Source: Floccifex porci
Lineage (GTDB): Bacteria > Bacillota_I > Bacilli_A > Erysipelotrichales > Erysipelotrichaceae
Direction of reading: 5' to 3'
NCBI RefSeq assembly: GCF_009696175.1
Contig: NZ_VUMM01000012.1
Span: forward strand, 1-53,058
DNA: 53,058 nt
The position numbers and the translations under genes were made by a program. Under the pieces are notes generated by a model, which saw only the letters and a list, made by a program, of their open reading frames with translations, was not told where the DNA came from and did no database searches. Shown here in pieces: positions 5,264-20,555 of the stretch. How positions within the stretch are numbered: position 1 is the stretch's first letter; each line of letters starts with the position of its first letter.

Positions 5264-6577
5264 ATGGAAGAAATTATAATCGATCCAATTCTTAAAAGAG
5301 GAATTGAAAGTATGGGATATAAAGAATGGACACCTATACAAAAAGAAGTGATTCCTTTATTAAAAGAAGGAAAAGATATTATTGGACAGGCCAAAACAGG
5401 AACGGGAAAGACAGCAACTTTTGGTCTTCCTATCTTAGAAAAAATTGATTGTGAATGTAAAAAAGTACAGGCATTGATTATATGTCCAACTAGAGAACTG
5501 GCAATGCAGATTGTTGAAGAATTAAGAATGTATGCCAGGTATATGCAGGGAATCCGCATTCTTCCCGTTTATGGAGGATGTGATATCAATCAGCAGATTC
5601 GAAATCTGAAAGGAGTACAGATTGTTGTGGGAACACCTGGAAGACTGCTGGATCATATAAGAAGGCATACAATTAAACCTAAGCAGCTTCAGATGGTTGT
5701 ATTAGATGAAGCCGATGAAATGCTGGATATGGGTTTTCGAGAAGATATAGAAACAATATTAAAGTCTATGAATCCTGAAATACAGACGTGTCTGTTTTCC
5801 GCAACAATGCCAGAAGAAATCATACAGATCGCAAAAAACTATCAGAACAATCCACAATTTATAAAGATAGAAAGCGATACTTTAACAATTGATTTAATAA
5901 AACAATACTATTCCATTGTTTCAAAAGAAATGAAATACAATTCATTGATTCAAATTTTAAATCAGAATTATTTTAATAAATGCATTCTATTCTGTAATAC
6001 GAAGAAACGAGTTTCTTTATTAGTAGAACAACTTTTAAAAGATGGTTACAATGTGGATGGACTTCATGGAGATTTAAATCAGAAACAAAGAAATCTGGTG
6101 ATGAATAAGTTTAGAAAAGGTCAGATACGAATACTGGTCTGTACGGATATTGCAGCCAGAGGAATTGATGTAAAGGAAGTTCAAATGGTGATCAATTATG
6201 ATATTCCTGATGAACTGGAATTTTATATTCATCGTATAGGAAGAACAGGAAGAGCGGGTAAAAAAGGAGTTTCTTATACTTTATGTACAAAAAAAGAAAT
6301 TTCTAAGATTCATCAGATTGAAAAATTATGTCATATACATATGATTGAAAAAAAGCTTTTTGATAAAGAGGAATATAGAAAGTACCAGCAAAGACAATTG
6401 TTTGAACAGATTTTAAAAGTAACACAGGAAGAAAATCTTCAGTCTTATATTTCACCTGTATATCGTTTCTGTAAATCAAATTCAATATCACCAGAACAGT
6501 TTATGGCAGCAAGTGTAAAATTGTTGTTAGAAAGGAATCGTTATGAAAAAAGCAATTCAGGAAATAAGAAAATTTAA
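5264..6577 (+). CDS. DEAD-box ATP-dependent RNA helicase
   Basis: All helicase motifs are present in order: Q motif (W-T-P-I-Q, about residue 20), motif I A-K-T-G-T-G-K-T, Ia P-T-R-E-L-A, Ib T-P-G-R, II D-E-A-D, III S-A-T, IV and V (D-I-A-A-R-G-I-D), and VI H-R-I-G-R-T-G-R-A-G. The 437-residue length covers the two RecA domains plus a C-terminal extension of about 75 residues. That extension is lysine/glutamine-rich and ends in S-N-S-G-N-K-K-I. The family (CshA/CshB/DeaD) unwinds RNA in ribosome assembly, mRNA turnover and cold adaptation. The 3' end overlaps the MazG-like gene by 35 bases. Confidence 0.95.
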   Translation: MEEIIIDPILKRGIESMGYKEWTPIQKEVIPLLKEGKDIIGQAKTGTGKTATFGLPILEKIDCECKKVQALIICPTRELAMQIVEELRMYARYMQGIRILPVYGGCDINQQIRNLKGVQIVVGTPGRLLDHIRRHTIKPKQLQMVVLDEADEMLDMGFREDIETILKSMNPEIQTCLFSATMPEEIIQIAKNYQNNPQFIKIESDTLTIDLIKQYYSIVSKEMKYNSLIQILNQNYFNKCILFCNTKKRVSLLVEQLLKDGYNVDGLHGDLNQKQRNLVMNKFRKGQIRILVCTDIAARGIDVKEVQMVINYDIPDELEFYIHRIGRTGRAGKKGVSYTLCTKKEISKIHQIEKLCHIHMIEKKLFDKEEYRKYQQRQLFEQILKVTQEENLQSYISPVYRFCKSNSISPEQFMAASVKLLLERNRYEKSNSGNKKI

Positions 6578-6857
6578 CAAGGAAAGAGAATGGGAAGTTT
6601 TTCATACACCAGAAAATCTGGCAAAATCCATATCCATTGAAGCAGGGGAATTGCTGGAATGTTTTCAATGGAATAATGATTATAATAAACAAAATGTTTG
6701 TGAAGAATTAGCAGATGTCATCAATTATTGTATTTTAATGGCGGATGCACTTGATGTAGATTTAGAAGAAATTGTATTAAGTAAATTAGAAAAGAATAAA
6801 GAAAAATATCCAGTTGATAAAGCGAAAGGAAATTCAAAGAAATATACAGAATTATAA
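6543..6857 (+). CDS. MazG-like nucleotide pyrophosphohydrolase
   Basis: This 104-residue all-alpha protein has the metal-binding pairs of the MazG/RS21-C6 group: E-A-G-E-L-L-E at about residue 34 and E-E-L-A-D-V-I-N-Y at about residue 57. These enzymes hydrolyse non-canonical or excess (d)NTPs to monophosphates. The closest type by length and motif is the short dCTP-pyrophosphatase-like subfamily. The start lies 35 bases inside the helicase gene with the ribosome site AGAAAGGA upstream, so translation is coupled. A terminator follows immediately. Confidence 0.88.
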   Translation: MKKAIQEIRKFNKEREWEVFHTPENLAKSISIEAGELLECFQWNNDYNKQNVCEELADVINYCILMADALDVDLEEIVLSKLEKNKEKYPVDKAKGNSKKYTEL

Positions 6858-6864
6858 AATAAAA

Positions 6865-6892
6865 ACAGCCTTTTGGGCTGTCTTTATTTTTA
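6865..6892 (+). terminator. Terminator after the MazG-like gene
   Basis: ACAGCC-ttttg-GGCTGT hairpin followed by a T-rich run (CTTTATTTTT). It ends the DUF2812-helicase-MazG transcript. Confidence 0.85.
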
Positions 6893-7079
6893 ATTTAGAG
6901 AAGAGAGAATTATGAAGATTATTATTATCTTTATCTGTAAAAGCCTTTATCTTTTACGCTTATATAATAATAAAAGAATACAAAATATTTATCTGAAAAC
7001 TATGGAAAATTATGTGAGTTTTTATAAGAATTTTGGGAATAATGGTATAATAAACGAAACAAATTGGGAGTGATTGTAT

Positions 7080-8138
7080 ATGAAGTTTTATATGCCGGTT
7101 TCTTATTATTTAGAAGAAAACTGTATTAAGAATCATAAGAAAGAAATCTTGGAATGTGGTAAAAAACCATTGATTGTGACAGGGAAACATTCTTCTAAAT
7201 TGAATGGGTCTTTGTATGATCTGATTTCTATTTTAGAAGACTATGTATTGTTTGATCAGGTAAATGAAAATCCCACTGTTAATCTTTGCGAAAAAGGAGC
7301 TAGGATGGGATTGGAACAGAAAGTGGATTATGTGATTGGTTTAGGAGGAGGATCCAGTATGGATGCTGCTAAAGCAATTGCTTTATTGATTAAAAATCCA
7401 GATGAAAATAAAGACTGTTTTTATCAGAAAAAAGAATTGTCTCATTTAGATGTCATCTGTATTCCAACTACATGTGGAACAGGATCAGAAGTAACTTCTA
7501 AAGCGGTATTATCACGTCCTGAACTTCATGAAAAAGGAAGTATTTCTCATGATATATGGCCTAAATATGCCTTTGTGGATGAAACGTATTTAACTTCTGC
7601 ATCTGATTCTTTAATTGTTTCAACTGCAGTTGATGCATTGGCTCATTTGATTGAAAGTCATCTCAATAAAAATAAAAATAGCTTTTCGTTAATGTGCACT
7701 ACTTATGGATTGTCTTTGTTTAAAGAAATGAAAGAAGAGCTGATTCATAAAGAATTTAATTATAAAAAATTAATGATGACTTCTTCCATTGCGGGTTTAG
7801 CTATTGCACAGACAGGGACTTCCATTCCTCATGCGATGAGCTATGACCTGACCAATTATTTTCATATCAGTCATGGATTGGCCTGTGGATATTATCTGGT
7901 TTCTTTTGTGGAAGTGGTGATGAAAAAATCACAGGAAGGTAAAGAAATATTATCACTTTTAGGATTCTCTGATTTTGATGAATTTAGAAATTGGATGGAA
8001 TCTTTAATTGGAAAACCAGGTCTGAATCAAAAAGAGTTTTTAATTGAATTGATGAATCAAAAGAAGGCAAAATGGTCCACAGCCTGTGTAAATATCACAA
8101 AAGAAGATATTTGTTTTATTGTACATTCTTCTTTATAG
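7080..8138 (+). CDS. Iron-containing alcohol dehydrogenase family protein
   Basis: The 352-residue product has the type III alcohol dehydrogenase fold. It has the NAD(H) loop G-L-G-G-G-S-S-M-D-A-A-K, the P-T-T-C-G-T-G-S-E-V-T motif, the metal-site segment V-D-A-L-A-H-L-I-E and the later S-H-G-L-A-C-G. The spread of Asp and His ligands fits Fe2+ or Zn2+. It is a little shorter than butanol dehydrogenases (about 385) and nearer the glycerol/propanediol group, but the substrate is not predictable. ATG 7080 was chosen over TTG 7074 because GGGAG at 7066-7070 is then 9 bases away. The gene is followed after 31 bases by the FabT-like regulator. Confidence 0.88.
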   Translation: MKFYMPVSYYLEENCIKNHKKEILECGKKPLIVTGKHSSKLNGSLYDLISILEDYVLFDQVNENPTVNLCEKGARMGLEQKVDYVIGLGGGSSMDAAKAIALLIKNPDENKDCFYQKKELSHLDVICIPTTCGTGSEVTSKAVLSRPELHEKGSISHDIWPKYAFVDETYLTSASDSLIVSTAVDALAHLIESHLNKNKNSFSLMCTTYGLSLFKEMKEELIHKEFNYKKLMMTSSIAGLAIAQTGTSIPHAMSYDLTNYFHISHGLACGYYLVSFVEVVMKKSQEGKEILSLLGFSDFDEFRNWMESLIGKPGLNQKEFLIELMNQKKAKWSTACVNITKEDICFIVHSSL

Positions 8139-8146
8139 TGTATAAT
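8119..8146 (+). promoter_or_regulatory. Promoter of the FabT-like gene
   Basis: TTGTAC (8119-8124), 16-bp spacer and a perfect TATAAT (8141-8146) overlap the stop of the dehydrogenase gene. A GGAG ribosome site stands before the ATG at 8170. Confidence 0.55.
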
Positions 8147-8169
8147 CTAATTACTAAAAAGGAGAAACT

Positions 8170-8613
8170 ATGGAGTATACAAAACATACAATTAATGAAT
8201 TGCTGGTGGGTATGTTTAACTACATACTTTATATAGAAGAAAGAAATCTGAAAAAGAAAAATGTGAAATTATCGATGAGTGAAGTTCATTTATTAGAAAG
8301 CATTGATAAAGCCAGTGACAATACGATGTCTCATATCGCAAAGCGCTCTATGATTACGCAGGGAACGCTTACTACCAATGTGAAAAGTCTGGTCGCAAAA
8401 GGATATGTAGAGCGATATAAAGATGAAAAAGATGGACGTATTGTACGTTTAAAAGTTACCGAAGCCGCAAAAAAGATATTAAAGATTCATGATGAATTTC
8501 ATGAACAGATGATTGATAAAGCCATTGCGGATCTGAAATTGGATGAAAATAAGGTATTAATTGATTCTTTAAAGAATATACTGGATTATTTTAGTGAACA
8601 ATATGGAGACTGA
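8170..8613 (+). CDS. fabT: FabT-like MarR-family regulator of fatty-acid synthesis
   Basis: This 147-residue winged-helix protein matches the FabT subgroup: an N-terminal helix with L-V-G-M-F-N-Y-I-L-Y-I-E-E, then S-E-V-H-L-L-E-S-I, T-Q-G-T-L-T-T-N-V-K-S-L as the recognition helix, and the wing D-E-K-D-G-R-I-V-R-L. FabT represses fab operons when long-chain acyl-ACP is present. The context agrees: acpP and acc remnants follow, and TTTGA-N3-TCAAA dyads, the FabT-type half-sites, lie before acpP. A terminator separates it from acpP. Confidence 0.82.
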   Translation: MEYTKHTINELLVGMFNYILYIEERNLKKKNVKLSMSEVHLLESIDKASDNTMSHIAKRSMITQGTLTTNVKSLVAKGYVERYKDEKDGRIVRLKVTEAAKKILKIHDEFHEQMIDKAIADLKLDENKVLIDSLKNILDYFSEQYGD

Positions 8614-8621
8614 AAGCGTTT

Positions 8622-8648
8622 AACTCACCTGGAAACGGGTGAGTTTTT
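8622..8648 (+). terminator. Terminator after the FabT-like gene
   Basis: AACTCACC / GGTGAGTT 8-bp stem with a short loop, followed by a short T-run. Confidence 0.85.
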
Positions 8649-8657
8649 AAATATCTA

Positions 8658-8712
8658 TATACTTTGAATATCAAATTATATATAATGTAGATATTTTTAG
8701 ATTCAAAGTATA
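8658..8712 (+). promoter_or_regulatory. acpP promoter with FabT-type operator and 12-bp inverted repeat
   Basis: TATAAT (8681-8686) is the -10 of acpP. Upstream, TTTGA-ATA-TCAAA (8663-8675) matches the TTTGA...TCAAA pattern of FabT boxes. In addition TATACTTTGAAT (8658-8669) is repeated as its exact reverse complement at 8701-8712, so two half-operators face each other across the -10 and start site. Confidence 0.65.
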
Positions 8713-8724
8713 GGAGGAAACGTT

Positions 8725-8949
8725 ATGTTAGAAAAAATTAAAGATGTCTTAGTAGATGCGATTAATGTAGATAGAGAATTAGTAAAACCTGAAGCCAATT
8801 TAAGTGAAGACTTAGATATAGATTCATTGGCTGCCGTTGAATTGGTCCTTGAACTGGAAACGGAATTTGATATTCGTATTGAAGATGAAGAACTGGCAAA
8901 TTTAAAAACCGTACAGGATATTATGGATTTAATTGCTTCTAAACAATAG
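8725..8949 (+). CDS. acpP: Acyl carrier protein
   Basis: The 74-residue acidic four-helix protein carries the phosphopantetheine attachment serine in D-I-D-S-L-A-A-V-E at about residue 37, and helix 2/3 motifs (E-L-E-T-E-F-D-I-R-I-E-D-E) typical of fatty-acid ACP. The usual family sequence at the attachment site is D-S-L-D; here it is D-S-L-A. A perfect AGGAGG lies before the ATG. It appears intact, in contrast to the acc and plsC remnants behind it. ACP is still needed for acyl-ACP-dependent lipid synthesis and for other acyl transfers, which may explain its survival. Confidence 0.95.
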   Translation: MLEKIKDVLVDAINVDRELVKPEANLSEDLDIDSLAAVELVLELETEFDIRIEDEELANLKTVQDIMDLIASKQ

Positions 8950-8964
8950 GAAGAGGAAAACCAA

Positions 8965-9360
8965 ATGGATACAGAAAATAAGAGAAATTGTTGAGATTTT
9001 TGAAAACAGTCAGATTTCAAGAATGGATGTAGAACAGGATTTATTTAAGATTCGTCTTGAAAAGAAAGAAGTTATAACTGTATCTAATGCGGTTGTAACA
9101 GAAAAAAGAAAGAAGAACCAGAGAAAAAGACATTGAATTCTCCTTTAGTGGGAACATTTTATGTCGCAATCAAACCAGGAGAGAAGCCTCTTGTACAAGT
9201 GGGACAAAGAGTAAAAACAGGAGATGTCATTTGTATTATTGAAGCAATGAAATCAATGAATGAATTAAAAGCCAATCAAGAAGGAGAAATACTGGAAATT
9301 CTAGTGAAAGATGGACAAATGATGGAATACGATCAGCTTTTGTTTGTATTAGGAGATTGA
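8965..9360 (+). pseudogene. accB: accB (biotin carboxyl carrier protein) broken by two frameshifts
   Basis: The gene begins with ATG at 8965 (M-D-T-E) after a GGAAGAGG site. Within four codons the protein-like frame shifts by one base: R-E-I-V-E-I-F-E-N-S-Q-I continues in the next frame up to about 9105. There a second slip in an A-rich run returns to the first frame, which reads E-E-P-E-K-K-T-L-N-S-P and a complete biotinyl domain with E-A-M-K-S-M-N-E (lysine is the biotin site) to the TGA at 9358-9360. In the first frame a TGA follows soon after the start. Both slips are at oligo-A tracts. A free biotinyl domain from TTG 9133 is possible but would be only 75 residues. Confidence 0.8.
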
Positions 9361-9361
9361 T

Positions 9362-9850
9362 ATGATTCAAAAAATTTGTATTGCCAATCGTGGAGAAATT
9401 GCGGTTCGTATCATTTGTGAAACTCCTTTATCTTTTATATCAAAAATTGAAAACGAATCCATTCCATTATTAGGAATGTGGGCTGTCAATATAGGAACCA
9501 TTCATTTTGATCGAGAAACCAGAGAAGGAAATGTACATATGTTAAGAGAAACCATTCGCGCTTTAAAAAAGAAAAGAAATCTATTGATTTTTCCAGAAGG
9601 TACCCGATCAAAAGGGGATGAAATGAATGAATTTAAAGATAAAGCGTTTCAGCCTGCCATTATGGTAAAATCCATCATTGTACCCGTTACTTTAAATGGA
9701 GCATATTGCCTGGATCGAAAAGATATCCATATTAAAGAATTAAAGATCACCTTTGGTAAACCAATATATTATGAACAATATTCTAAAATGAATCGAGAAG
9801 AGTTAAGTGAATATGTTTATCAGAAAATAAAAAGTCATTTAAATAATTGA
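9362..9850 (+). pseudogene. In-frame accC'-'plsC fusion left by a deletion
   Basis: The first 19 residues (M-I-Q-K-I-C-I-A-N-R-G-E-I-A-V-R-I-I) are the unmistakable start of biotin carboxylase AccC. From about residue 21 the sequence is the later two-thirds of a 1-acyl-glycerol-3-phosphate acyltransferase (PlsC): I-P-L-L-G-M-W, F-D-R-E, then F-P-E-G-T-R-S-K-G and V-P-V-T-L-N-G-A. The catalytic N-H-x4-D motif of PlsC, the whole ATP-grasp body of AccC and any genes once between them are missing. The frame is open (162 residues), so a product could be made, but neither activity can remain. ATG lies one base after the accB stop. Confidence 0.82.
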
Positions 9851-9873
9851 TTTTATGTTAGAAAAAGTTAAGC

Positions 9874-9895
9874 TGAGAGAAATCTCAATTTTTTG
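9874..9895 (+). terminator. Weak terminator after the plsC remnant
   Basis: TGAGA-gaaa-TCTCA is a short 5-bp stem followed by a run of six T residues. It ends transcription from acpP before the MarR gene. Confidence 0.5.
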
Positions 9896-9931
9896 TTTGA
9901 CTTTCAAACTAAAATGGTTCACAATATGAAC
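9895..9931 (+). promoter_or_regulatory. Promoter/operator region of the MarR-degV operon
   Basis: GTTTGA-ctt-TCAAAC (9895-9909) is a FabT-type dyad that overlaps a -35-like TTGACT (9897-9902). With a 17-bp spacer the -10 would be CACAAT (9920-9925). A second dyad GTTCA-N5-TGAAC (9917-9931) sits on that -10. Repression by FabT, by the MarR protein encoded next, or by both would fit. Confidence 0.5.
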
Positions 9932-9960
9932 AGTTTATAAAATGAACTAAAGGAGGGTGT

Positions 9961-10392
9961 ATGGAAGTATCGGAAGAATTAATTAAAATATGGAATCAGA
10001 TTTCTTATGCTTTAAAACCATCGCGTATGTTTTCTAAATTATCTTATAATGAACAGACAATCTGTTCGATATTAATACATAGTGAAAAAAAATGTACGGC
10101 TACCGATCTAATTCAGAAAACAGGTTTATTAAAATCACAGATGAATAAAATTATAAGCCAGCTGGAAGAAAAAAATGTGGTTCAAAGAAATCGGAATTTA
10201 GAAGATAAACGAAAAATTACGATTTTCATTACGGATTATGGAAAAGAACTTTATCAAAAAGAACACCAGTCAGTATTGGAAATTGGTAAACTTGTCACAA
10301 ATTCACTGGGAGAAGAAAAGACAAGACAACTGGTGGATTTAATGAACGAAACGTTACATATAATAGAAAAAGGAGAAGAAAATGAGTATTAG
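9961..10392 (+). CDS. MarR-family regulator preceding degV
   Basis: The 143-residue protein has a winged-helix domain at about 35-110: C-T-A-T-D-L-I-Q-K-T-G-L-L-K-S-Q-M-N-K-I-I-S-Q-L-E is the HTH and E-D-K-R-K-I-T-I-F-I-T the wing. It is a different MarR subgroup from the FabT-like protein 1.5 kb upstream. An AGGAGGG site precedes the ATG. The gene overlaps degV by 11 bases, so they are co-translated. Control of fatty-acid uptake is a reasonable guess from the DegV partner and the upstream dyads, but the ligand is not known. Confidence 0.85.
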   Translation: MEVSEELIKIWNQISYALKPSRMFSKLSYNEQTICSILIHSEKKCTATDLIQKTGLLKSQMNKIISQLEEKNVVQRNRNLEDKRKITIFITDYGKELYQKEHQSVLEIGKLVTNSLGEEKTRQLVDLMNETLHIIEKGEENEY

Positions 10393-11209
10393 AATTATTA
10401 CAGATTCAGGATGTGATATTAGTCAAAAAGAAGCAAAAGAAAAAGGAATTGTTGTCCTTCCTTTGACAACAATTATCAATCAGAAAGAATATAGAGATGG
10501 CATAGATATTCAGGCCGATGAATTTTATGAACAATTGATTTCCACGGATATTATGCCAACCACTTCACAAGTGACAATTGGAGCGTTCTTAGATGCGTTT
10601 GAACAATATAAAGACGATGAAATTTTATGTATGACCATTTCATCTCAATTATCTGGATGTTTTCAAAGTGCGAGTGTTGCCGCTCAAGATTATGAGAAGG
10701 TCAGAATTGTGGACACAATGAATGTATCTTTAGGATCTCGTAATTTAATTGAACTGGCTTTATCTTATATTGAAAAAGGAATGGATATAGATTCGATTGT
10801 AGAACAATTGGAAATGGATAAGACAAAATGTAAAGTGTATGCCTATTTTGATACATTAGAATTTTTAAAAAGAGGAGGAAGAATTTCTTCAGCGGTTGCG
10901 GCAGCAGGATCGATTTTAAATATTAAACCAGTATTAACGTTAAAAGAAGGTGTTATTGAAATGTCTGGAAAAGCCAGAGGATTAAAGAAAGCCGGTTCCT
11001 GTATGGCAAAATGTGTGATGGAAGATGGAATGGATTTCTCAAAGCCATATCATTTAGCTTATTCTGGATGTTCTAAGGAAGGTGTTTTATCTTTTTTAGA
11101 CAATAATAAAGAATTGAATCTGGATTCTGGTAAAATTGTACAGATTGGACCGACAATTGGTACCCATGCAGGACCTGGTGCAGTTGCGATTTCTTATTTT
11201 GTAAAGTAG
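10382..11209 (+). CDS. DegV-family fatty-acid-binding protein (FakB-like)
   Basis: The 275-residue protein starts I-R-I-I-T-D-S-G-C-D-I, the DegV N-terminal motif, and has M-P-T-T-S-Q-V near residue 60, S-S-Q-L-S-G near 85, F-L-K-R-G-G-R-I-S near 160 and I-G-T-H-A-G-P-G-A near the end. DegV proteins bind a fatty acid. Those working with the kinase FakA (FakB) present host fatty acids for phosphorylation and entry into phospholipid. No fakA lies in the window. Its survival beside a wrecked acetyl-CoA carboxylase/PlsC locus fits a cell that relies on outside fatty acids. Confidence 0.9.
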   Translation: MSIRIITDSGCDISQKEAKEKGIVVLPLTTIINQKEYRDGIDIQADEFYEQLISTDIMPTTSQVTIGAFLDAFEQYKDDEILCMTISSQLSGCFQSASVAAQDYEKVRIVDTMNVSLGSRNLIELALSYIEKGMDIDSIVEQLEMDKTKCKVYAYFDTLEFLKRGGRISSAVAAAGSILNIKPVLTLKEGVIEMSGKARGLKKAGSCMAKCVMEDGMDFSKPYHLAYSGCSKEGVLSFLDNNKELNLDSGKIVQIGPTIGTHAGPGAVAISYFVK

Positions 11210-11231
11210 AAGTGACATTCACTTCTTTTTT
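11209..11231 (+). terminator. Terminator of the MarR-degV operon
   Basis: GAAGTGA-cat-TCACTTC perfect 7-bp stem plus six T residues. It starts on the last base of the degV stop codon and overlaps the next promoter. Confidence 0.9.
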
Positions 11232-11246
11232 ATTTATAATGGTCAT
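11212..11246 (+). promoter_or_regulatory. Promoter of the MATE gene, predicted leaderless
   Basis: GTGACA (11212-11217), 17-bp spacer, perfect TATAAT (11235-11240). The usual start, 7 bases after the -10, is 11247, the A of the ATG. There is no Shine-Dalgarno sequence. The -35 lies in the stem of the preceding terminator. Confidence 0.75.
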
Positions 11247-12578
11247 ATGTCTATATCATTATCAGATCATTTTACATATAAAAAATTAATTGCCTTTGTG
11301 TTTCCGTCCATTGTGATGATGATCTTCACTTCTATTTACAGCATTGTGGATGGATTTTTTGTGTCCAACTATGTCGGAAAAACCGCTTTAGCGGCATTAA
11401 ATCTGATTACTCCAGCACTTATGATCGTTTCTGCAATTGGATTTATGATGGGAACGGGAGGATCTGCCATTATTGCCAAAACATTAGGAGAAGGAAGAAA
11501 AAAAGAAGCCAATGGTTATTTTTCCTGTCTTATGGCATTTATTATTCTATTTGGAGCTTTTGTTTCATGTTTTGGAATCCTATTCATGTCCCAGATTGCT
11601 TCCTTTTTAAAAGCAACCGAAGAAATGATGCCTTTGGCAGTTTTATATGGACGAATTATGATGGTTTCTCTTCCGTTTTTTATGTTACAGACATCGTATC
11701 AGACATTATTTGTGACGGCAGAAAAACCCAAATATGGACTGTATGTGACTTTAGGAGCTGGAATCTGTAATATGATTCTGGATTTTTTACTGGTAGGTGT
11801 ACTAAAATGGGGCCTGGCAGGAGCAGCCATTGCTACGGCAAGCTGTGAAATAACAGGGGGATTGGTTCCAACTTTATATTTTTTAAGAAAAAACAATTCT
11901 TCTTTATTATGTTTATCCAAACCTATATGGGACTTCAAAATACTTTTAAAATCGGCTTTTAATGGCTCCAGTGAATTTGTCAGTCAAATTTCAAGTTCCC
12001 TGGTGGCAATGATCTATAATTTTCAGCTTCTTCATTTTGCTCAAGAAAATGGAGTGGCGGCTTATGGAGCCATCATGTATGTGAATTTTATATTCTGTGC
12101 CATTTTTATTGGGTATTCTACAGGAAGTGCTCCTTTAATAGGATACAATTTAGGAGCACAAAATGAAAAAGAATTAAAAAATGTATTTAAAAAATCAATT
12201 GTTTCCATTCTTTGTTTAGAAATAATAGTCACAGTATTATCTTTCCTTTTATCAGAATGGATCATGGGAATCTTTGTAGGGTATGATCGTACTTTATTTG
12301 AAATCACAGTGGCTGGCTTTCATATTTATTGTATTCATTATTTATTATGTGGAATCAATATTTATGCCTCTTCCTTTTTTACCGCTTTAAATAATGGAAA
12401 AATATCAGCGGTAATCTCGTTTATGCGAAGCTTTATCTTTCAAATGGGAAGCCTGATTCTACTTCCATTTTTCTTTGGATTAAATGGAATCTGGTGGGCT
12501 ATCGTTGTTGCGGAAAGCTTTACTTTTCTTTTAACTTTGTTCTGTTTGAAGAAATATAAAAAAGTATATCATTATTAA
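11247..12578 (+). CDS. MATE-family multidrug/Na+ antiporter
   Basis: The 443-residue protein is almost wholly hydrophobic, with about 12 membrane segments in the MATE two-bundle layout. The opening is typical of the DinF/NorM-type bacterial group: F-P-S-I-V-M-M-I-F-T-S-I-Y-S-I-V-D-G-F-F-V-S, then G-T-G-G-S-A-I-I-A-K-T-L-G-E-G in the first loop and its counterpart Y-S-T-G-S-A-P-L-I-G-Y-N-L-G-A in the second half. Such pumps export cationic drugs using a Na+ or H+ gradient. Monocistronic, with an apparently leaderless mRNA. Confidence 0.92.
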   Translation: MSISLSDHFTYKKLIAFVFPSIVMMIFTSIYSIVDGFFVSNYVGKTALAALNLITPALMIVSAIGFMMGTGGSAIIAKTLGEGRKKEANGYFSCLMAFIILFGAFVSCFGILFMSQIASFLKATEEMMPLAVLYGRIMMVSLPFFMLQTSYQTLFVTAEKPKYGLYVTLGAGICNMILDFLLVGVLKWGLAGAAIATASCEITGGLVPTLYFLRKNNSSLLCLSKPIWDFKILLKSAFNGSSEFVSQISSSLVAMIYNFQLLHFAQENGVAAYGAIMYVNFIFCAIFIGYSTGSAPLIGYNLGAQNEKELKNVFKKSIVSILCLEIIVTVLSFLLSEWIMGIFVGYDRTLFEITVAGFHIYCIHYLLCGINIYASSFFTALNNGKISAVISFMRSFIFQMGSLILLPFFFGLNGIWWAIVVAESFTFLLTLFCLKKYKKVYHY

Positions 12579-16925: not shown

Positions 16926-16937
16926 TATAATTTTTTC
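16926..16937 (+). promoter_or_regulatory. Leaderless-type promoter of the LRR-VWA-MoxR operon
   Basis: TATAAT (16926-16931) ends exactly 7 bases before the A of ATG 16938, with only ttttttc between and no ribosome binding site. The -35 is poor. Confidence 0.55.
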
Positions 16938-17828
16938 ATGAAATATCAATTTTACTATAAAGAGAAAAAAGATGGTTCTTTATGTTTAATGAAAGTATAT
17001 GGACAATATGGAATGGTTGAAATACCGGAAACAATCAATGGGAAACAAGTAAGTGAAATAGGACCTTATTGTTTTTCTTATTCAAAAGTAGAAGATTCTT
17101 TTTTTTATACAGAATCTATTGATGGAATTGAACTATCTTGTGATGAAATCGAAGAAGTTTATTTACCAAGATCCATTCAGAAAATAAATTCCTATGCGTT
17201 CTACAATTGTCGGAATTTAAAGAAATTAAAAATATATGAAATTAAAGAATTAGGAAGCGATGTATTTATGAATTGTTTGTCTTTACATACCATTCAAATG
17301 GATTCTTTTTCCCATCTTAAAAATATTCTTAAACAGATTTCATGGAATATTGTGATCCAAACGCCTTCTTTTTCCCTTTTCTTTCCTGAATATTATGAAA
17401 TATATGATGAAATAGGGCCTGCTCATATATTTGGGATCCATATTGAAGGAGAAGGATATCGAATGCGTCAATGTTTTCAAACAAATCGTTTTCTGTTTGA
17501 GGAATATGATAAATGTTTTGATAAATTAAAAAATGAAGAAAAAGAAGAAATAGTTTGTCAGGTTGCGTATTATCGTCTTTATTATCCATATCATTTAAAT
17601 GATAAAGAGGTGTATGAACAATATATAATGAAACATCTACCATCGTTCAGTAAATTATTAAATGTAGAAAATTTATTCTATTTTGAAAAGTATTTAAATA
17701 TAGAAACTATAGATTCTCTTATTCAAAAAGGAATAGAATCAGAGAATCCATTATTTGTGACAAAATGTATGGAACTAAAACGAAAGAAATTTAAAAAGAG
17801 AACCTATGATTTTGAGGATTTTATATGA
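16938..17828 (+). CDS. Leucine-rich-repeat (BspA-like, LRR_5) protein, first gene of the MoxR/VWA operon
   Basis: From ATG 16938 the protein has 296 residues and no signal peptide, so it should be cytosolic. Residues about 20-150 hold BspA/LRR_5-type repeats: V-E-I-P-E-T-I-N-G-K-Q-V-S-E-I-G-P-Y-C-F, then E-E-V-Y-L-P-R-S-I-Q-K-I-N-S-Y-A-F-Y-N-C and L-G-S-D-V-F-M-N-C-L. The C-terminal 140 residues are helical, acidic and rich in Tyr/Phe, with no family I recognise. It overlaps the VWA gene by 4 bases (ATGA), so the two are made together. A likely role is substrate recognition or scaffold for the MoxR/VWA machine; this is inference. Confidence 0.75.
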   Translation: MKYQFYYKEKKDGSLCLMKVYGQYGMVEIPETINGKQVSEIGPYCFSYSKVEDSFFYTESIDGIELSCDEIEEVYLPRSIQKINSYAFYNCRNLKKLKIYEIKELGSDVFMNCLSLHTIQMDSFSHLKNILKQISWNIVIQTPSFSLFFPEYYEIYDEIGPAHIFGIHIEGEGYRMRQCFQTNRFLFEEYDKCFDKLKNEEKEEIVCQVAYYRLYYPYHLNDKEVYEQYIMKHLPSFSKLLNVENLFYFEKYLNIETIDSLIQKGIESENPLFVTKCMELKRKKFKKRTYDFEDFI

Positions 17829-19114
17829 AATATATCAGTGAAATTGAATGGCAACAACAAGTTTGTGTACAGATCATGGAACATGTGAAAAGTGAATTGT
17901 TTCTGGATTTTCCCTTTATGGCACTTCCTTTAAATGGATTACAGATGCAGATGAGTGATTCGTTAAAAAGTGCGGGATGTGATGGAAAGACTTTTTATTT
18001 TTCAAATGAATTTGTGATACGTATCTTTAAGAAAAATCCGGTTTATTTAAATCGTATCTATTTACATTCAATTCTTCATTGTGTATTTTCTCATTTGTGG
18101 ATTTCATCCAGTCGAAATATGAATCTATGGCATATTGCCTGTGATATTTGTGTGGAATACACATTGGATCATTTAGAGAAAAAGAGTGTAAAAAGAATCT
18201 TATCGTATATTCGAAAGAAGACGTATCAGATATTAGAAAACGAATACAATTTATCGGCTTCCGGTATTTATTTATATTTATTGAATCTGGATTCAAAACA
18301 ATTACTGGAATTAAAAAATGAATTTATATGTGATGATCATCGATATTGGCCAAAATCAAAAGAAGAGTCACAATCCATTGGAAATCAGAATTTAAAGAAC
18401 AGCTGGAAACAGAAAGCTATACAGTCTTCTTTACAGAATAAAAATAAGATGGATGGAAAAGAAGAGGGTAGCTACAGTTGGCAAATCAAAATGGCGGAAT
18501 CAAAACGTAGTTATCGTGAATTCTTAAAAAAATTTATGGTTTTAAAAGAAGAAGTAAAAATAAATGAAGATGAATACGATTTATCTTATTATACGTATGG
18601 TTTACGTTTATATAAGAATCTTCCTTTAATTGAACCTATAGAAACAAAAGAAGAAAGAAAAATACCGGAACTGGTGATTGTTTTAGATACATCGTATTCA
18701 ACAAGTGGAAATTTAATAAAAAACTTTTTGAAGGAAACATCTGCGATTTTAAAATCAAATGTGTTTTTTTCAAACAGTAAAATTCATATTATACAATGTG
18801 ACAATCGAGTACAGGATCATAAAATACTGACTTCTTTTGATCAGATGGATGAATTTTTAGAATCTTTTACGGTAATTGGAGGAAATGGGACTGATTTTCG
18901 CCCTGTTTTTGATTATGTGAATGAGTGTATGGAACAGGGGATTTGCAAAGAAGTATCGGCTTTACTTTATTTTACAGATGGAAAAGGGATATATCCAAAA
19001 AGAAGACCCAATTATAAATGTGCATTTTTATTCTTAGAGGATTATGATAGAAATTTAGTTCCGACATGGGCGATTTCGCAGAGAATGGATCCCATTGAAA
19101 TATTAGGAGGGTAA
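17825..19114 (+). CDS. DUF2201/VWA-like protein, partner of a MoxR ATPase
   Basis: The 429-residue protein has two parts. The N-terminus (about 1-200) is the DUF2201 putative metallopeptidase-like domain, whose metal motif here is H-S-I-L-H-C-V-F-S-H (81-90). A family-typical site would read H-E-x-x-H, so the catalytic Glu is replaced by Ser. A charged linker follows. The C-terminal VWA-like domain (about 280-429) keeps the full MIDAS set: D-T-S-Y-S (DxSxS), N-G-T-D as the Thr site and T-D-G as the Asp site. Such proteins work with MoxR AAA+ ATPases as metal-dependent adaptors. It sits between the LRR gene (4-base overlap) and the ATPase (1-base gap). Confidence 0.85.
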   Translation: MKYISEIEWQQQVCVQIMEHVKSELFLDFPFMALPLNGLQMQMSDSLKSAGCDGKTFYFSNEFVIRIFKKNPVYLNRIYLHSILHCVFSHLWISSSRNMNLWHIACDICVEYTLDHLEKKSVKRILSYIRKKTYQILENEYNLSASGIYLYLLNLDSKQLLELKNEFICDDHRYWPKSKEESQSIGNQNLKNSWKQKAIQSSLQNKNKMDGKEEGSYSWQIKMAESKRSYREFLKKFMVLKEEVKINEDEYDLSYYTYGLRLYKNLPLIEPIETKEERKIPELVIVLDTSYSTSGNLIKNFLKETSAILKSNVFFSNSKIHIIQCDNRVQDHKILTSFDQMDEFLESFTVIGGNGTDFRPVFDYVNECMEQGICKEVSALLYFTDGKGIYPKRRPNYKCAFLFLEDYDRNLVPTWAISQRMDPIEILGG

Positions 19115-19115
19115 C

Positions 19116-20555
19116 ATGAATATTAAACAGGCAAAAGAAGAAATAAAAAATACAATTAAAGTCTATCTTGAAAAAGATGAATACAACCAATATAAGATTC
19201 CTTCCATACGTCAAAGACCTATATTATTGATTGGTCCTCCTGGCATTGGAAAGACACAGATCATGGAACAGATTTCCAAAGAATGTAAGATTGGACTGGT
19301 AAGCTATACAATCACGCATCACACAAGACAAAGTGCAGTGGGTCTTCCATTTATTGTGGAAAAAGAATTTGATGGAAAAAAAGTATCGGTAACGGAATAT
19401 ACAATGAGTGAAATCATTGCCAGTATTTATCAGAAGATGGAAGAAACGGGTGTAAAAGAAGGAATTTTATTCATTGATGAAATCAATTGTGTTTCCGAAA
19501 CTTTAGCGCCTACTATGCTTCAGTTTTTACAGGGAAAAACATTTGGAAATCAGGCAATACCGGAAGGATGGATCATTGCAGGAGCTGGAAATCCAATGGA
19601 ATATAATAAATCCGTTCGTGAATTTGATATGGTGACTTTAGATCGAGTTCGCTATCTGAATGTCGAACAGGATTTGAATGTATGGAAAGAATACGCATTG
19701 TCCAATCAGATACATCCTTGTATATTAAGTTATCTGGATTTAAAACCTTCTCATTTTTATCATGTGGAAAATGATGTGGATGGGCTTCGCTTTGTGACGG
19801 CTCGAGGATGGGAAGATCTGTCGTATTTAATGAAACGATATGAAGCTTTACAGATACAGATTACAGAAGATGTGATCTATGAATATTTACACGATCGGGA
19901 TATCAGTGAAGATATGGCTTCGTATTATACGTTATATCGAAAATATAAAGAAGATTATGGTATTGAAAATATATTAAATGGAAAGATATCGACTTCTTTA
20001 TATGCACGGGGATTTAATGCTTCTTTTGATGAAAGATTATCGGTCATTCATTTATTGCTGGATGGTTTATTTCAGCGGATTCAAACTTTATATGAAAAGA
20101 AAGATCAATTGGATTATCGATATGAATTTTTAAAAAATTATTTTAAAAATAAAGATACAAAAAGCTATTCTTTATGTATTCAGGAAGCTTTATTGGAAAA
20201 TCAGAATCAGTATAAATCGGAATTTATCACAAAAAATAGATATTGTATGGTGAATCAATGGATACAGAATTTAAAAGAAAAGGAATTAAACGCAAAAGAA
20301 TCTTTCTTAAAATATAAAGAAGAAGTGGAAAAGACAGAAGAAAACTGTATACAGTCTATGAATTCCTGTTTTGAATATCTGGATTCTTTGTATTCAAATG
20401 GACAGGAGATGGTTATTTTTGTGACAGGTTTATCTCTACAGAGTCAATGTGCAATCTTTTTATCTGAAAATGAAATTCCTTTGTATGAAAAATATAAACA
20501 GGAATTATTGATTGGTACAAAGAGAAAAGAAATAATGGATATATTGAATTCATAA
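19116..20555 (+). CDS. MoxR-family AAA+ ATPase
   Basis: The 479-residue protein has an AAA+ core at about residues 30-270: Walker A G-P-P-G-I-G-K-T, Walker B L-F-I-D-E-I-N, sensor 1 A-G-A-G-N-P, arginine-finger region D-R-V-R, and R-G-W-E-D-L in the lid. H-T-R-Q-S-A-V-G-L-P is the pore-loop-like insert of this group. The last 200 residues are helical and highly charged. MoxR ATPases pair with VWA proteins to remodel or metallate target proteins (as RavA-ViaA, CbbQ-CbbO, NorQ-NorD). It is the third gene of the LRR-VWA-MoxR operon. Confidence 0.88.
   Translation: MNIKQAKEEIKNTIKVYLEKDEYNQYKIPSIRQRPILLIGPPGIGKTQIMEQISKECKIGLVSYTITHHTRQSAVGLPFIVEKEFDGKKVSVTEYTMSEIIASIYQKMEETGVKEGILFIDEINCVSETLAPTMLQFLQGKTFGNQAIPEGWIIAGAGNPMEYNKSVREFDMVTLDRVRYLNVEQDLNVWKEYALSNQIHPCILSYLDLKPSHFYHVENDVDGLRFVTARGWEDLSYLMKRYEALQIQITEDVIYEYLHDRDISEDMASYYTLYRKYKEDYGIENILNGKISTSLYARGFNASFDERLSVIHLLLDGLFQRIQTLYEKKDQLDYRYEFLKNYFKNKDTKSYSLCIQEALLENQNQYKSEFITKNRYCMVNQWIQNLKEKELNAKESFLKYKEEVEKTEENCIQSMNSCFEYLDSLYSNGQEMVIFVTGLSLQSQCAIFLSENEIPLYEKYKQELLIGTKRKEIMDILNS

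Follow-up and report, generated by a model that had tools for sequence, protein, structure and literature searches.

A conserved LRR, DUF2201/VWA and MoxR gene trio of gut Bacillota and its possible role as a three-part protein-remodelling machine

In Floccifex porci, a 53,058-nucleotide stretch of DNA analysed as a whole (contig NZ_VUMM01000012.1, hereafter the window) carries a compact trio of + strand genes encoding a leucine-rich repeat (LRR) protein, a DUF2201 protein with a von Willebrand factor A (VWA) domain and a MoxR-type AAA+ ATPase. The LRR gene overlaps the DUF2201/VWA gene by 4 bases and a 1-base gap separates the latter from the MoxR gene; this arrangement, claimed by an earlier interpretation made without database searches (the sequence-only reading), agrees with the coordinates of the open reading frames (ORFs). 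The genes and their probable promoter element are as follows:

16926..16931, + strand: probable -10 element TATAAT of a leaderless-type promoter, 6 nt upstream of the gene 1 ATG, with no Shine-Dalgarno sequence
16938..17828, + strand: gene 1, LRR protein with a C-terminal helical domain, 296 residues, conserved first gene of the trio (Pfam LRR_5, 2.2e-12)
17825..19114, + strand: gene 2, DUF2201 protein with a rebuilt metallopeptidase-like domain and a VWA domain, 429 residues (Pfam DUF2201, 4e-10; DUF2201_N, 3.3e-6; mean predicted local distance difference test score, pLDDT, of the model 86.9)
19116..20555, + strand: gene 3, MoxR-type AAA+ ATPase with conserved motifs, 479 residues (Pfam AAA, 4.6e-8; AAA_5, 4.9e-8)

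A leaderless-type promoter upstream of gene 1, likewise part of the sequence-only reading, is plausible. The hexamer and the missing Shine-Dalgarno sequence speak for it, as does the recurrence of TATAAT at or just before the gene 1 start in the four nearest orthologues; it is graded plausible rather than proven because a consensus promoter scan listed no + strand site at 16926-16931.

The three genes form a unit that is conserved well beyond the window. Among 60 related genomes, a MoxR protein of the trio type is found in the window genome and in six others, and all 10 copies have their genes arranged LRR-VWA-MoxR on a single strand and lie in differing surroundings. With the MoxR alignment as its only query, a scan of contigs representing one genome per species yielded at least 588 confirmed MoxR relatives. 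Loci were examined for the 80 best of them, which come from Lachnospiraceae, Oscillospiraceae (Gemmiger, Faecalibacterium), Eubacteriaceae and other Clostridia; with the window included, 90 loci were considered in all. As this query contained neither LRR nor VWA sequence, the neighbour count is not circular. The order LRR-VWA-MoxR on the same strand is kept in 79 of the 90 loci, with gaps below 700 bases in 73 of those 79 and median intergenic gaps of 11 bases (LRR-VWA) and -4 bases (VWA-MoxR). Once three loci cut by contig ends are left out (L068, L076 and L132), an LRR-family gene 1 is retained in 82 of the 87 evaluable loci; this count includes L085, where LRR-VWA is divergent from MoxR, L086, where an LRR gene adjoins MoxR at the edge of a contig, and L140, where gene 1 is truncated. 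Conversely, in the 60 related genomes, stray LRR matches outside trio loci end by residue 158 of gene 1 and none spans its C-terminal domain. LRR retention beside MoxR/VWA pairs and LRR homologues found elsewhere were the two observations set beforehand to decide whether the link was accidental, and both upheld the central claim of the sequence-only reading, that of a conserved three-part unit. With all 10 copies in the related genomes and nearly all the named Clostridia loci sharing it, chance is excluded. Beyond the three genes, no family recurs constantly beside the trio in the loci examined, so that no constant fourth gene is seen; among 296 sampled Bacilli genomes the LRR type is confined to the window genome and G040, and plasmid and viral collections gave only remote MoxR relatives.

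The history of the three proteins is largely shared. Their trees (quick for MoxR, careful for VWA, quick and weaker for the LRR protein) match in the main groups, and pairwise distances among them correlate with r = 0.83-0.84; together with the varied flanking genes, this broad agreement marks the trio as one inherited unit. Partial correlations of the LRR protein with VWA and MoxR are about equal (0.43 and 0.49) and do not separate a VWA contact from a MoxR contact. Erysipelotrichales copies split into two groups that lie apart in the trees: those of the window type neighbour Roseburia- and Eubacterium-like Clostridia, and a second type is placed elsewhere, close to other Clostridia in the MoxR and VWA trees. 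Both types coexist in G003 and G004, two genomes from the genus of the window. The simplest reading is that the window's order acquired the whole trio at least twice. Purifying selection acts on each of the three genes (dN/dS, the ratio of nonsynonymous to synonymous substitution rates, 0.05-0.40), gene 1 having a dN/dS about twice that of MoxR. Such a pattern is more in keeping with a stable cellular client than with an arms race; an arms-race LRR is unsupported, as gene 1 shows values of 0.09-0.40 and no sign of diversifying selection. A mobile or phage origin is likewise unsupported: the one viral match is distant (22% identity), and the MoxR proteins matched on plasmids are all remote.

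The structural model of gene 1 is of high confidence (mean pLDDT 95.5, predicted template modelling score 0.89). Its N-terminal part is an LRR domain of the BspA type, followed by a conserved beta segment, by helices that span roughly residues 173-285 and by a less certain tail. The sequence-only reading had announced a 140-residue helical C-terminus; a helical C-terminal part does exist, which in fact comprises about 110 helical residues, flanked by the beta segment and the tail. Three parts of the protein are of particular relevance:

17373..17492, + strand: residues 146-185 (PEYYExYDExGPAH...GEGYRMRQ), the most conserved segment of gene 1
17493..17792, + strand: residues 186-285, helical C-terminal domain, proposed docking module
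17793..17825, + strand: residues 286-296, C-terminal tail KKRTYDFEDFI, an aromatic-x-hydrophobic end after a basic stretch

Mean pairwise identity within gene 1 reaches 44% in residues 146-185, as against 31% in the LRR part and 26% in the helical part. The LRR domain resembles TpLRR (PDB 6mlx; Z 14.6, root-mean-square deviation 2.2 over 112 aligned residues) and PDB 4oju (Z 14.5), LRR_5 is present in 74 of 74 gene 1 members and matches are to LRR families only. Pfam gives neither a family on the helical C-terminal part nor any enzymatic or catalytic domain in gene 1, and no export signal is seen in its sequence. The structure-match lists barely probe the helical domain, for which no fold is claimed. 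The tail is distinctive: a basic-[FY]x[LF]-COOH ending is carried by 68 of 80 gene 1 relatives as against 7.4% of the 1173 control ORFs taken from these loci, and only 1 of 87 VWA and 1 of 89 MoxR partner proteins has it. It exists in short (e.g., KKKFEL) and long (e.g., YSFDDF) forms, preceded by a basic stretch with a mean net charge of +2.8.

An indication of how gene 1 is built comes from L140, where truncated gene 1, VWA, MoxR, an Hsp70 (HSP70, 1.2e-111) and a J-domain protein follow one another on one strand (6163-12465). The first ORF (6163-6669) retains the C-terminal domain and tail only (matching profile positions 222-323 with an E-value of 6e-11); its last residues are DFSL, and the LRR domain is gone. 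This suggests, at the level of sequence, that gene 1 is modular, its C-terminal domain representing a constant docking part and its LRR domain an exchangeable arm, an argument given moderate weight because L140 is a single locus of a metagenome-assembled genome on long branches. A different rearrangement is seen in L065 (G040), where one trio copy has an LRR gene enlarged to 657 residues and a VWA gene split into two overlapping frames of 265 and 190 residues (9438-10804).

The N-terminal domain of the gene 2 product belongs to DUF2201_N, a putative metallopeptidase family. The features of the protein are:

18065..18157, + strand: putative rebuilt metal site H81, H85, C86, H90, C106, D107 and E111, in which HxxxHCxxxH...CDxxxE replaces HExxH...xDxxxN
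18569..18655, + strand: conserved pre-VWA segment, residues 249-277, with seven invariant residues; proposed MoxR-coupling element
18662..19072, + strand: VWA domain with a complete metal ion-dependent adhesion site (MIDAS; D288, S290, S292, T356 and D385)

The catalytic Glu of HExxH is absent from 85 of 86 clade members, Met (30), Ser (23), Thr (14) and others taking its place, while the Asn of the canonical site is a Glu (E111) in 87 of 87. The three His are kept (86/86, 86/86 and 85/86), Cys86 and Cys106 are found in 81 and 82 of 86 members, and D107, D170, H172 and W175 are conserved too. Twelve of the twelve DUF2201 proteins outside the clade (Bacilli and phage-like contigs; two are near-identical) have the HExxH Glu, and Asn at the E111 position; one clade member, L144, has both Glu residues. 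Since the clade lacks the one Glu and has the other, since the twelve outside relatives keep the Glu/Asn form and since L144 unites both, the site is, judged by its residues, rebuilt rather than simply lost. It could serve as a structural metal site, in a control function or as a catalytic site that has moved; a structural or regulatory metal site is most likely, because the HExxH glutamate is gone yet metal ligands are retained. In practice, the paired Glu/Asn change offers a simple sequence marker separating the trio class from other DUF2201 proteins. Regarding the VWA domain, its fold (best Z 14.2) and a MIDAS complete at each residue in 87 of 87 members are those of a VWA co-chaperone. No solved relative of the gene 2 product was detected by sequence at E up to 1; its structure matches are taken up by the VWA part and do not address the fold of the metallopeptidase-like domain. 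In the conserved 249-277 segment, block pLDDT means are as low as 45-62, which fits an element ordered only once bound. By analogy with the NorD finger (PMC9976466), this segment could couple the gene 2 product to MoxR.

Gene 3 encodes the elements expected of an AAA+ core, namely Walker A (GPPGIGKT) and Walker B (ILFIDE), a sensor and the DR of an arginine finger, and GxPGIGKT, FxDEINC, GNP and DR are invariant across its MoxR relatives. Its probable assignment to MoxR is based on a sub-cut-off bpMoxR match (2.7e-5), on tblastn matches to annotated MoxR proteins and on its VWA partner. No close solved structure was retrieved for gene 3; most matches cover no more than a short P-loop stretch, in Cdc48-type proteins or in midasin.

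In MoxR/VWA pairs, the VWA protein engages a target that the ring remodels. By extension, we favour, with even probability, the reading of the trio as a three-part protein-remodelling chaperone composed of a MoxR/VWA core and a dedicated LRR adaptor. In such a machine, MoxR would form an ATP-driven AAA+ ring and the DUF2201/VWA protein would be its co-chaperone, gripping a partner through an acidic group bound at the MIDAS and probably coupled to the ring by the pre-VWA segment. The LRR protein would dock on this core with its helical C-terminal domain and tail, while the LRR face would pick the client, which ATP hydrolysis would then remodel. Complex formation, the adaptor role and remodelling itself are what we infer for the trio, the remodelling role by analogy with the MoxR and MIDAS-type VWA families. 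In NorQD, the MIDAS is required for activity and dispensable for NorQ binding (PMC9976466). More broadly, it is possible, if doubtful, that the trio represents an undescribed and widespread class of gut Bacillota chaperones, in which exchangeable client-choosing arms (LRR, or Hsp70/J-proteins in L140) would plug into a MoxR/VWA motor via one conserved C-terminal domain and tail, and in which an ancestral metallopeptidase (HExxH...N) would have been rebuilt into a metal-dependent control site (HxxxH...E).

Comparison with known systems places the trio close to several of them and within none. With CbbQ-CbbO, NorQ-NorD and RavA-ViaA it shares a MoxR AAA+ ring, an adjoining MIDAS-type VWA gene and probable ATP-driven client remodelling, but it adds a constant third gene, the proposed LRR adaptor, and a DUF2201 metallopeptidase-like N-terminal domain on the VWA protein, and it has no known client. 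The MoxR-vWA ternary conflict systems, as far as their accessible descriptions extend, combine these two proteins with VMAP, iSTAND, FtsH, beta-propeller, iSTAND2 or TERNS3 third components, the beta-propeller subtype also having no conventional effectors (PMC7159879, PMC8195603). Likewise, the trio encodes MoxR, vWA and a specific third protein together, in an order kept in the 79 loci, and a 5' third gene is also described for TERNS3. However, its third component matches LRR families only, none of the three window proteins carries an effector domain, its hosts are single-celled gut Bacillota, its vWA protein has a DUF2201_N domain and it evolves under purifying selection. No LRR third component appears in the accessible text on described ternary systems (PMC7159879, PMC8195603), the 2020 ternary-system paper having 'LRR' in a reference title only. 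The trio is therefore not filed with these systems, as the third-component and effector features fail. Canonical DUF2201 and MoxR pairs of Bacilli and phage-like contigs (L152, L166-L176) have the same core families, a largely kept MIDAS and the shared HxxxH, D107 and DxH, but differ by an intact HExxH, Asn at position 111, a MoxR gene usually encoded first and other partners in place of gene 1 (an SNF2-type helicase, tandem paralogues or, in L170, unrelated LRR proteins). As for BspA-type LRR proteins, gene 1 has their fold in its N-terminal part but no visible export signal, adds the helical domain and tail and always occurs with VWA-MoxR. The best reading is that the trio works like a MoxR/VWA chaperone with the outline of a ternary system, distinct from CbbQO, NorQD, RavA-ViaA and the ternary conflict systems alike. 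The statement of the sequence-only reading that no described system has these three parts holds within the open-access literature searched, where neither a description of the trio nor an assigned function was found.

Several points weigh against a chaperone with an LRR adaptor: five evaluable loci (L073, L105, L130, L139 and L145) have no recognisable LRR gene, no client candidate gained support, and the modularity argument stands, with moderate force, on one metagenome-assembled locus with long branches. Moreover, LRR domains have many roles, and the client could be the LRR protein itself, which VWA-MoxR would fold, mature or release before it acts elsewhere in the cytosol. Strict genetic linkage fits a single client equally well and the conserved tail could be a MIDAS ligand or handle; nevertheless, gene 1 lacks a catalytic domain, its product is the fastest-evolving member of the trio (29% mean identity versus 44% and 54% for the other two proteins) and L140 keeps the machine though the LRR domain is gone, which makes a dedicated client unlikely. 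Of the two options initially given, that the LRR protein chooses the client or is the client, the balance has moved towards the first, because the C-terminal domain and tail look constant and the LRR domain is dispensable in L140; the second retains some weight.

An immune or conflict function, in which the LRR domain would sense an invader and VWA-MoxR would set a response threshold, could draw on the same core pair and 5' third component as in the accessible accounts of ternary systems (PMC7159879, PMC8195603), and on the scattered occurrence of the trio in the window's order, at two tree positions. We consider it quite improbable, given that Pfam reveals no effector domain in the three window proteins, that the LRR part shows dN/dS of 0.09-0.40 and no diversifying selection, that no mobile or defence neighbours are constant, that the host lineage is not multicellular and that PADLOC returned short, generic AAA matches only and no defence family, on which ground a known defence family was rejected. 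Insertion of a metal or cofactor, the rebuilt site carrying the metal and the LRR protein selecting an apo-enzyme, would account for the clade-wide loss of the HExxH Glu with Asn111 turned into Glu, and for the two conserved Cys; MoxR/VWA proteins have precedents in metal insertion with NorQD and CoxDE (PMC9976466, PMC7159879), and nickel-pincer cofactor genes neighbour the trio in seven loci. LarC is, however, missing from three trio carriers, the window's own genome, G001 and G024, and nickel-pincer enzymes therefore cannot be the general client; a general nickel-pincer dependency was rejected, LarC being present in 4 of 7 trio carriers versus 19 of 53 others. An insertion chaperone is a rather remote prospect.

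MoxR/VWA pairs are common and, to our knowledge, few of their clients are known, client selection being still an open question. With a candidate adaptor that is genetically marked, modular and endowed with a conserved terminal peptide, the trio makes client selection directly testable. It is present in hundreds of species, including cultured gut commensals such as Coprococcus comes, Blautia, Anaerostipes and Gemmiger. This wide Clostridia distribution, gene 1 modularity as suggested by L140, the conserved tail and the rebuilt DUF2201 site all go beyond the sequence-only reading.

Some neighbouring and related loci deserve mention. LarC, LarB and LarE genes lie downstream of MoxR, adjoining the trio or less than 5 kb from it, in seven Clostridia loci (L068, L070, L074, L117, L105, L134 and L078). 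In six related Mediterraneibacter-like loci (L094, L097, L101, L105, L124 and L134), a gene less than 200 bases 3' of the trio encodes a protein that we take to resemble the lactate-utilisation protein LutC. Among the canonical pairs, a large SNF2/ResIII-type helicase (1105-1256 residues), similar to DrmD/BrxH-type defence helicases in its motor part only, adjoins MoxR and canonical DUF2201 in several Bacilli (L166:1615-7770, L167:841-6462, L168:260-6412 and L176:5204-10862). In L170 (2214-9149), two other BspA-type LRR proteins are encoded directly 5' of MoxR and a canonical DUF2201 with intact HExxH, followed by small uncharacterised genes; lacking the gene 1 C-terminal domain and tail, this LRR association is apparently independent of the trio. 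Finally, the MoxR-DUF2201 pair of L171 (5786-10726) is followed by about six genes encoding proteins of 217-260 residues, several of which resemble mutual paralogues.

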